Positions 9,231 to 12,396 of a stretch of 62,181 nucleotides of DNA are shown piece after piece. Positions within the stretch are counted from its first letter, which is position 1. Each line of letters starts with the position of its first letter. Under the pieces are notes generated by a model that worked only from the letters and a program-made list of their open reading frames with translations, was not told where the DNA came from and made no database searches. The translations under genes were made by a program, and so were the position numbers. The DNA comes from Lachnospiraceae bacterium (GTDB lineage Bacteria; Bacillota; Clostridia; Lachnospirales; Lachnospiraceae), in contig JAFSBX010000031.1 of assembly GCA_017437065.1 (NCBI GenBank), positions 1 to 62,181 of the forward strand, given 5' to 3'.

Positions 9231-9543
9231 TACCGAACTTTAATCTTTAAGTGAGGGTTCTCGTCTCGTAAGTAAATATGAAGCGGCTGATAGTGCAAGT
9301 CACTATTTTTTATATAGATTACGAATAAGAGCCAACAGAGAGATTACTTTTTGGTACCGAATATTCTTCGGAAAAATCGGACTGATCCTGTCCGATTGGG
9401 CTTAATGACCGCCCCAATCAATCAGTAACGGCTACACATAAAGTGTAGCAAAGTAGTGACAAAATGTCATGAACCGGCGCATAAGCGCAAGCGTAATAGC
9501 ACAGCGTAAAACGCGTGTGCAGCAGAAAATGGAGGAAACGTAA
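9231..9543 (+). promoter_or_regulatory. Structured leader before rpsM with seven or more hairpins
   Basis: This 313-base gap has no ORF but a dense series of perfect stems: ATAGTG/CACTAT followed by seven Ts (9290-9312, a weak terminator shape), CCGAA/TTCGG (9357-9371), AATCGGAC/GTCCGATT (9375-9397), GATTGGG/CCCAATC (9394-9419), GCTACAC/GTGTAGC (9431-9449), TGACA/TGTCA (9457-9469), GCGC/GCGC (9477-9488) and a bulged 9-bp stem 9499-9520. The third and fourth share bases 9394-9397 and cannot form together, as in attenuators. In E. coli, S4 represses the alpha operon at the rpsM leader; a similar function here is inference. Confidence 0.65.
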
Positions 9544-9912
9544 ATGGCTCGTATCGCAGGTGTTGATTTACCTAGAGAAAAACGTGTAGAAATCGGTTTA
9601 ACTTATATCTACGGAATCGGTAGAGTAAGTGCAACAAAGATTTTAGCTGAGGCAAATGTTAATCCTGACACTCGTTGTAGAGATTTAACAGATGACGAAG
9701 TAAAGAAAATCAGCGAAGTTATTGATGCAACAATGACTGTAGAAGGTGATTTAAGAAGAGAAATCGCTCTTAACATCAAGAGATTACAGGAAATTGGATG
9801 CTACAGAGGAATCCGTCATAGAAAAGGACTTCCGGTTCGTGGTCAGAAGACCAAAACAAATGCTAGAACTCGTAAGGGTCCAAAACGTACGGTAGCTAAT
9901 AAGAAGAAATAA
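9544..9912 (+). CDS. rpsM: 30S ribosomal protein S13
   Basis: uS13, 122 residues, lies in the head of the small subunit and contacts P-site tRNA and large-subunit bridges. [21 protein letters not shown] opens the protein and [19 protein letters not shown] and a basic tail close it, as usual. GGAGG precedes the ATG. The last codons are repeated just downstream (see repeat at 9884-9964). Confidence 0.98.
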
Positions 9913-9964
9913 TTTAGTCTTTGGTACGTTTTCAACGTACAGTAGCAAATAAGAAGAAATAATT
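9884..9964 (+). repeat. Direct repeat of the rpsM 3' end
   Basis: The 31 bases 9884-9914, covering the last nine codons and stop of rpsM, recur at 9934-9964 with only two substitutions, 50 bases further on. The second copy lies in the spacer and even keeps the TAA. This looks like a local tandem duplication that left a vestigial gene end. Confidence 0.85.
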
Positions 9965-10426: not shown

Positions 10427-10505
10427 TCGTAAATAAGCAAAACGAAAACCCATTTGGACGAAGGCGCAATCCTTCATATTGTCGGTTTGCGTTGTAAACA
10501 ATAGC

Positions 10506-10536
10506 AGGAGAGCAACTCTCCTTTAAAAGAAAGGAG
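10506..10536 (+). promoter_or_regulatory. Two mutually exclusive hairpins at the rpsD ribosome binding site
   Basis: AGGAGAG (10506-10512) pairs perfectly with CTCTCCT (10516-10522). Alternatively CTCCTTT (10518-10524) pairs perfectly over seven bases with AAAGGAG (10530-10536), which is the ribosome binding site of rpsD. The two stems share 10518-10522 and exclude each other, so the first leaves the site open and the second hides it. Further pairing (GAAGG/CCTTC at 10460-10475) lies upstream. S4, the product of rpsD, is a known autogenous repressor in other bacteria, so it is the natural candidate ligand. Confidence 0.7.
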
Positions 10537-10542
10537 CCAACA

Positions 10543-11136
10543 ATGGCAGTTAATAGAGTACCCGTACTTAAAAGATGTAGAACACTTGGTTTAGAACCAT
10601 CTTATTTAGGATATGACAAAAAATCCAATAGAACAAATGCAAGAGCAGGTAAAAAAGTAAGTGAATATGGTCTTCAGTTAAGAGAAAAACAGAAAGCTAA
10701 ATTCATTTATGGTGTTCTTGAAAAACCTTTCAGAAACTACTATGAAAGAGCTGACAGAATGAAAGGCCAGACAGGTGAAAACCTTATGGTTATTCTTGAA
10801 AGAAGACTTGACAGCGTAGTTTTCAGAATGGGATTCGCTAGAACAAGAAGAGAAGCAAGACAGATCGTTGGACACAAACACGTTTTAGTAAACGGTAAAT
10901 GTGTAAATATTCCGTCTTACTTAATCAAAGCTGGTGACGTAATCGAAATCAGAGAAAAATCCAAAGGATTACAGAGATATAAAGATATCCTCGAAGTAAC
11001 AGCCGGAAGATTATATCCGGAATGGATGGACGTAGAGAAAGAAGCATTCAAAGGAACAGTTAAAAATCTTCCTACAAGAGAAATGATTGATGTTCCGGTT
11101 GACGAAATGCTTATTGTCGAATTATATAGTAAGTAA
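10543..11136 (+). CDS. rpsD: 30S ribosomal protein S4
   Basis: uS4, 197 residues, initiates 16S rRNA assembly and in E. coli and B. subtilis represses its own synthesis. The N-terminal region starts [19 protein letters not shown], followed by the S4 RNA-binding domain [20 protein letters not shown] near residues 90-110. Placement within the alpha operon differs from B. subtilis, where rpsD stands alone. The 116-base spacer upstream can form alternative structures at the ribosome binding site. Confidence 0.98.
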
Positions 11137-11214
11137 TAGGAATCGAGCGGAGAGTCTCCGCTCATTTTCCACCTACATTACCAAATTAAAAGTTCGTAAA
11201 GGAGGGTATTTGCA

Positions 11215-12174: not shown

Positions 12175-12175
12175 A

Positions 12176-12256
12176 GCAGGAAAAGTTATTCTAAGGCATG
12201 AAAGAACCCTGCCTAAGAACAACTACAGTTTCCTGCAGAAGAATGCTTTAGCATTC
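12176..12256 (+). ncRNA. Second copy of the spacer hairpin family, between rpoA and rplQ
   Basis: The outer arms GCAGGAAA (12176-12183) and TTTCCTGC (12229-12236) enclose a 15-base inner stem, 12184-12198 with 12210-12224. The inner stem contains the same TTCTAAGGC/GCCTAAGAA core and the same A-A mismatch as the element at 2809-2870, while the flanking and outer arms differ but still pair. A smaller hairpin GAATGC/GCATTC (12241-12256) follows, as in the first copy. About 140 further bases lead to rplQ with no ORF; there a TACC-TTTC-GGTA hairpin is visible. Confidence 0.65.
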
Positions 12257-12396
12257 CTCGAAATTGTTATGATGCATGTCTAATAAGTCTAAAATGCGTA
12301 GGCGTGTTACTCATATAATGGAAACTATTAATACCTTTCGGTAAGTAAGTCCAAAGAGCGTGGCCGGAGGGAAGCCCATTAAAAGGAGATAGAAAA

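Follow-up and report, generated by a model that had tools for sequence, protein, structure and literature searches.

Organization of the rpsK-rpsD spacer

The window, meaning the whole stretch of 62,181 nt of Lachnospiraceae DNA analysed here, carries rpsD, the gene for ribosomal protein S4, within an alpha operon of the order rpmJ, rpsM, rpsK, rpsD, rpoA, rplQ, where the genes other than rpsD are what we take them to be from their translations. An annotated Agathobacter record shows the same gene order. The features of the rpsD leader, and a sub-cut-off leader match further upstream, are listed in Table 1.

Table 1. Features in and upstream of the rpsK-rpsD spacer of the window
Feature	Positions	Strand	Basis
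rpsD (S4), 197 aa	10543-11136	+	translated ORF
rpsK-rpsD spacer, 116 nt, contains the leader	10427-10542	+	
Shine-Dalgarno of rpsD, AAAGGAG	10530-10536	+	
16S helix-16-like putative S4 site	10454-10501	+	model R1, covariation, likeness to 16S helix 16
Helix-16-like site, outer helix (UUG / CAA)	10454-10456 / 10499-10501	+	
Helix-16-like site, internal loop (GACGAAG vs UGUAAA)	10457-10463 / 10493-10498	+	
Helix-16-like site, inner stem	10463-10468 / 10488-10493	+	
Hairpin A, between helix-16-like site and Shine-Dalgarno	10506-10522	+	perfect 7-bp stem
Hairpin B (CUCCUUU / AAAGGAG), closing the ribosome site if formed	10518-10536	+	perfect 7 bp
Weak start-codon hairpin (GCCA 10536-10539 / UGGC 10544-10547)	10536-10547	+	predicted minimum-energy folds
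S4-Clostridia-like leader (RF03140), 5' of rpsM, sub-cut-off	9371-9422	+	31.6 bits vs cut-off 37.5, E 3.8e-5

A first-pass annotation of this DNA had described two mutually exclusive hairpins in front of rpsD and proposed that they form an S4-linked translational switch. The letters and coordinates of both pairings are correct and were seen directly in the sequence. In hairpin A, AGGAGAG (10506-10512) is perfectly complementary to CTCTCCT (10516-10522), and in hairpin B, CTCCTTT (10518-10524) is perfectly complementary to the Shine-Dalgarno; only one of the two can form because 10518-10522 are used by both. Among 53 window ORFs of at least 60 aa with a Shine-Dalgarno-like site (not all of them real genes), rpsD was the only one with more than five contiguous Watson-Crick pairs between its Shine-Dalgarno and the 60 nt upstream. 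When the 28 nt separating the helix-16-like site from the Shine-Dalgarno were permuted, A arose at a frequency of 0.0047 (20,000 shuffles) and B at 1.45e-4, while A and B together arose in none of 200,000 shuffles. Both pairings are beyond what composition produces by chance.

Calculated energies of the single hairpins were -9.1 kcal/mol for A and -7.0 kcal/mol for B, and the best fold containing A reached -14.1 kcal/mol vs -9.2 kcal/mol for the best fold containing B. The predicted probability of B was about 0.10 in the window and 0.29 in the congener (L003). By calculation the open state (A) is favoured without S4. A third, weak pairing at the start codon (Table 1) covers part of that codon and the last G of the Shine-Dalgarno.

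A conserved structure upstream of rpsD resembles 16S helix 16

Directly upstream of hairpins A and B lies a conserved element of the form UUGGANGAARG-stem-UGUAAACAA, with the consensus (G)UUGGANGAARG, variable stem, YUGUAAACAA in relatives. The relatives were the best 80 of 583 rpsD relatives plus one congener; with L056 and L081 left out because they lacked usable upstream DNA, the 80 rows compared comprise 78 loci, L003 and the window. A letter pattern found the motif in 60 of the 80 upstream regions, including that of the window, and a covariance model (E<=0.01) recovered it from 67 of the 82 sources, 47 of these 67 being training rows. Letter conservation was drawn from the 67 model matches, because the invariance of the 60 pattern hits is partly forced by the pattern itself; UGUAAAC was present in all 67 and GGANGAA in 66. 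In nine loci lacking the motif the rpsK-rpsD spacer was just 16-19 nt long. The sequence GGAGCC, which accompanies the weak start-codon pairing, was observed in 34 of 95 distinct upstream regions positive for the letter pattern vs 5 of 46 negative ones, and four of these five (L010, L017, L021, L149) bear the motif according to the covariance model.

The training alignment (A2) held 47 of 59 N-free motif sequences, namely those of 50 nt or less, and the covariance model R1 was built from it; the window is absent from A2 because of this length limit. Two helices accounted for the alignment, with 94.1% of cells paired vs 29.5-63.3% in slid controls, both-side changes in 7 of 10 pairs, and a covariation score of 0.454 vs 0.053-0.178 when slid. 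RNAalifold recovered the same two helices unprompted, and the motif shows the covariation by which ribosomal leaders are recognized. In the window, R1 scored 35 bits at positions 10449-10504, with an E of 8.6e-8 across the 62 kb; this was the best match in that genome, with the next at 21 bits.

A position-blind search of 397 genomes of the same family with R1, under strict filters, returned 49 matches in 47 genomes, and the context of all 49 was checked. Forty-three were directly 5' of rpsD, between rpsK and rpsD, and 38 of these differed from the exact training sequences. All 41 matches of at least 31 bits were at rpsD, compared with 2 of 8 weaker ones. The remaining six family matches (23.9-30 bits) were taken as chance, with no rpsD, rpsK, rpsM or rpoA within flanks of about 1.5 kb. 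Among 391 class-level genomes R1 matched in 16, of which nine belonged to the same family and had the match at rpsD in every case. The seven out-of-family matches (23.3-30.1 bits) had no rpsD, rpsK, rpsM or rpoA within about 1.5 kb on each side and were likewise taken as chance for want of an alpha-operon gene there. The structure stands consistently 5' of a ribosomal protein gene, as is expected of a ribosomal leader. With 43 of 397 family genomes having an R1 match at rpsD, most members of the family must manage without the motif or have forms that the model misses.

The internal loop of the motif, GANGAAR opposite UGUAAA, equals the loop of 16S helix 16. A loose core pattern had a single fit in E. 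coli rrsB (GAAGAAGGCCUUCGGGUUGUAAA at 410-432) and a single fit, in the same helix, in the 16S of a family member. In the 62-kb window this pattern has eight fits counted over both strands, one of them the leader, so the letters alone prove little. R1, which was trained on mRNA leaders only, was used to search E. coli 16S together with three Bacilli loci (8.3 kb). Its top match was E. coli 16S nt 410-432 with 15.2 bits (E 0.0097), followed by a match of 8.8 bits. On the one same-family 16S sequence searched, helix 16 ranked only fourth (5.8 bits, E 3.4); its loop there reads GAGGAAG. We also compared 18 distinct helix 16 strings from Clostridia 16S, leaving out L213 and L219, which had no anchor. 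GUAAA was present in all 18, the loose core in 15 and the strict core in 8, and the three strings that failed the loose core differ in the GANGAAG strand. A 16S gene was searched for in the window's own genome and not found, and a search of 21 family genomes found it in one. Helix 16 is one of the helices of the S4 site in 16S and the only one copied in the leader. The full site is a five-way junction located in the 16S 5' domain (PMC10931766).

Hairpins A and B among relatives

Three genomes of the genus were available and rpsD was found in two of them, that of the window and G001. The congener G001 has kept both pairings; the sole change in the arms is C10516 to T, which makes one G-C pair of hairpin A a G-U. 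For the wider family we used 94 non-redundant motif-bearing leaders chosen by the letter pattern, with the variants L010, L017 and L021 outside the set though positive with the model. The start codon was 20-29 nt past UGUAAAC in 66 of these leaders (short tails), a tail too short to leave room for a spacer hairpin, while 28 had longer tails. A perfect 7-bp anti-Shine-Dalgarno was observed in four leaders: the window, L003, and the Candidatus Eisenbergiella leaders L028 and L042, whose layout resembles that of the window. The remaining 90, including 24 long tails, had at most four contiguous Watson-Crick pairs to the Shine-Dalgarno; when G-U pairs were allowed, L006 and L019 also reached seven. 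The first-pass annotation had suggested checking relatives for conservation of both pairings and had named the uncompensated loss of one of them as evidence against a switch. At family level that loss is what we found, hairpin B being confined to 4 of 94 leaders.

Spacers of long-tail leaders nevertheless fold, and in 26 of the 28 they fold better than their own shuffles (z < -2), with clade-specific sequences such as CAGAUG..CAUCUG in Butyrivibrio and GAAGAGG..CCUCUU elsewhere. Given these clade-variable spacers and the confinement of B to four leaders, we read hairpin A most readily as a variable spacer helix that separates the helix 16 copy from the ribosome site, and hairpin B as a possible additional lock in two lineages. 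The Shine-Dalgarno had predicted accessibilities of 0.71, 0.37, 0.31 and 0.23 in the four B-bearing leaders; across the 66 short tails the median was 0.75. The value for L003 changed with the segment chosen for folding, averaging 0.59 or 0.37 over 7 positions, and two other long tails were also low (L041, 0.46; L019, 0.56). A tree of S4 and part of alpha, in which leaders with S4 identity below 74% or a short or missing rpoA were left out, put the four B-bearing leaders in two places, needing two changes; a single origin of the layout was not rejected (p-AU 0.405). In L117, 221 nt separate the S4 motif from rpsD (about 1535-1755), and this stretch is full of predicted large hairpins.

These data bear on three explanations of the hairpins. 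Read as a switch, S4 or ribosome loading would flip hairpin A (open) to hairpin B (closed) as the regulatory event, which is compatible with an S4 site next to it. The occurrence of A and B beyond chance, their retention in the congener, the similar layout in the two Candidatus Eisenbergiella leaders and the lower predicted accessibility of the Shine-Dalgarno all speak for such a switch, but it could operate in only 4 of 94 leaders, 66 are too short to accommodate it, and the window favours A by 2-5 kcal/mol. Moreover, the putative S4 site shares no bases with either arm, so the sequence does not reveal how S4 would flip it. We consider a switch as the regulatory event unlikely. Chance is a stronger contender, with a probability only a little below even: the A/B complementarity, as distinct from the S4 site, may be an accident of repeated GGAG in the spacer, since a 5' arm of A that looks like a Shine-Dalgarno brings B with it, and B is absent from 90 of 94 leaders. 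Yet such complementarity is unusual within the window, is kept in the congener and is present at a second place in the tree. Hairpin A, a 7-bp stem followed by UUU, could also be taken for an intrinsic terminator, or an attenuator, in the rpsK-rpsD spacer. We rejected this candidate, which appears highly improbable, because the consensus scan gave no + strand terminator there, only one on the - strand (10522-10506), and most spacer hairpins of relatives have no subsequent U run.

The proposal of an S4-linked translational switch therefore divides. The conserved 16S helix 16 look-alike directly upstream makes the site very probably an S4-controlled translational leader; a switch between A and B as the general mechanism did not hold up. 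Because B is rare and 66 of 94 tails are too short, the A/B switch can be no more than a lineage-specific addition, and it may be one in the leaders of the window, L003, L028 and L042. The motif might instead be a ribosomal leader with another operon product as its ligand, as S11, S13, L17 and alpha are all encoded in the same operon and the choice of S4 comes from mimicry. This seems very unlikely to us, however, since the strong R1 matches all adjoin rpsD and the copied helix is part of the S4 site in 16S.

Proposed S4 control and relation to known leaders

Our preferred reading is that the rpsK-rpsD spacer probably contains an internal S4 leader, in which a copy of helix 16 would be bound by free S4 and S4 synthesis lowered. 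The core of this leader would be the copy itself, made up of the outer helix, the loop GANGAAR opposite UGUAAA, and the inner stem. S4 in excess of new 16S rRNA would bind the copy in its place, a few bases from the rpsD Shine-Dalgarno and within the expected footprint of an initiating 30S subunit. In 54 of the 66 short tails the Shine-Dalgarno begins 6-9 nt past UGUAAAC, a distance at which S4 on the copy would be expected to keep the 30S subunit out or to trap it. We infer S4 binding, repression and this steric block, which would leave the cell with less S4; rpoA and rplQ, 3' of rpsD, would perhaps be lowered too. In long tails the spacer hairpin may hold the ribosome site near the helix 16 copy by stacking, the start-codon hairpin may help, and hairpin B, as a lineage-specific alternative, may add to repression in four leaders.

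We compared the motif with known leader families by scanning the rpsD leader of the window and ten motif members against Rfam 15 at E<=10. Nothing matched the rpsD leader of the window, and the sole overlap in the ten members was a snoRNA family at the rpsD leader of L047 (E 7.8), which was taken as chance. The motif looks like a family absent from Rfam 15. One known system is RF03140, which belongs to the same operon and related hosts and has S4 as its proposed ligand. It differs in consisting of two adjacent hairpins 5' of rpsM that are not clearly rRNA-like, whereas the motif lies between rpsK and rpsD, and it had no match at the rpsD leader of the window or the ten members at E<=10. RF03140 matched 96 of the 397 family genomes, including 19 of 43 with the rpsD motif vs 77 of 354 others (Fisher p 0.002, with related genomes not independent), and 18 of the 19 pairs were on one contig within about 1.2 kb by coordinates. 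Two leaders are therefore often found in one operon. RF03140 is the Clostridia leader reported 5' of rpsM, and S4 was assigned as its ligand from the analogy to other lineages (PMC7247131).

Autorepression of the alpha operon by S4, as proposed here, is also the function of the E. coli Alpha_RBS (RF00140). That element is a pseudoknot over the rpsM start, while the rpsD motif is instead between rpsK and rpsD, and RF00140 had no match at the rpsD leader of the window or the ten members. A weak RF00140 match was observed at the rpsM start of the window (9482-9576; 26.4 bits vs a cut-off of 38), partly over conserved coding letters, and weaker matches were found at rpsM of several relatives.

The S4 leader of rpsD in Firmicutes (Bacilli) reportedly goes back to Grundy and Henkin. 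It shares with the motif an rRNA-imitating GUAA and a position 5' of rpsD, and the GUAA imitating 16S by which it is recognized was found in the motif as well (UGUAAAC in 67 of 67 model matches, together with the likeness to helix 16). However, rpsD of Bacilli lies apart from the alpha operon, whereas the rpsD of the motif is within it, and the motif, unlike the Bacilli leader, also copies the opposite strand of the helix 16 loop. None of the three Bacilli rpsD loci searched had an R1 match in its leader, and Rfam returned no S4 family on them. S4 autorepression is known from B. subtilis (PMC10931766), the GUAA of the Firmicutes leader has been described as imitating rRNA, and the text of PMC7247131 gives this earlier leader as absent from Clostridia. 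The S4-Fusobacteriales leader is similar in its GUAA, also thought to imitate rRNA (PMC7247131), but the genes it regulates start with rpsM (PMC7247131, Table 1) and the motif precedes rpsD. For this leader the empty Rfam 15 scan of the window's rpsD leader (E<=10) is telling only if Rfam includes it.

A search of open papers turned up no account of an rpsK-rpsD leader in Lachnospiraceae; the main text of PMC11109978 does not name rpsD or rpsK. The motif is best read as a new class of S4 leader, one that mimics rRNA and lies within the alpha operon. As far as the text of PMC7247131 goes, RF03140 is the sole leader described for S4 autoregulation in Clostridia, and analogy is the basis on which its ligand was named. 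The motif, short and visibly modelled on one helix of the S4 site, stands before rpsD in dozens of genomes and is a small object for a direct test of rRNA mimicry, and it also bears on independent control inside a ribosomal protein operon and on the ligand of RF03140. A broader picture, which we regard as rather doubtful, would have many Lachnospiraceae carry two unrelated leaders in one operon, RF03140 at rpsM and the helix 16 copy at rpsD. S4 could then adjust expression of its own cistron independently of S13 and S11, the assignment of S4 to RF03140 would be in doubt, and the bistable Shine-Dalgarno hairpin would have been wired on in this genus and some Eisenbergiella.

Other spacers of the operon also contained features of note. 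The rpsM-rpsK spacer contains a partly duplicated rpsM tail: the 31 bases around the rpsM stop (9884-9914) recur 19 bases on, at 9934-9964, with 2 mismatches. The rpoA-rplQ spacer (12175-12396) is 222 nt long and may hold another leader. Between rpsD and rpoA, a GC-rich 9-bp hairpin followed by TTTT on the + strand (11144-11164), scored by the terminator scan on the - strand only, could be an attenuator separating the two genes.
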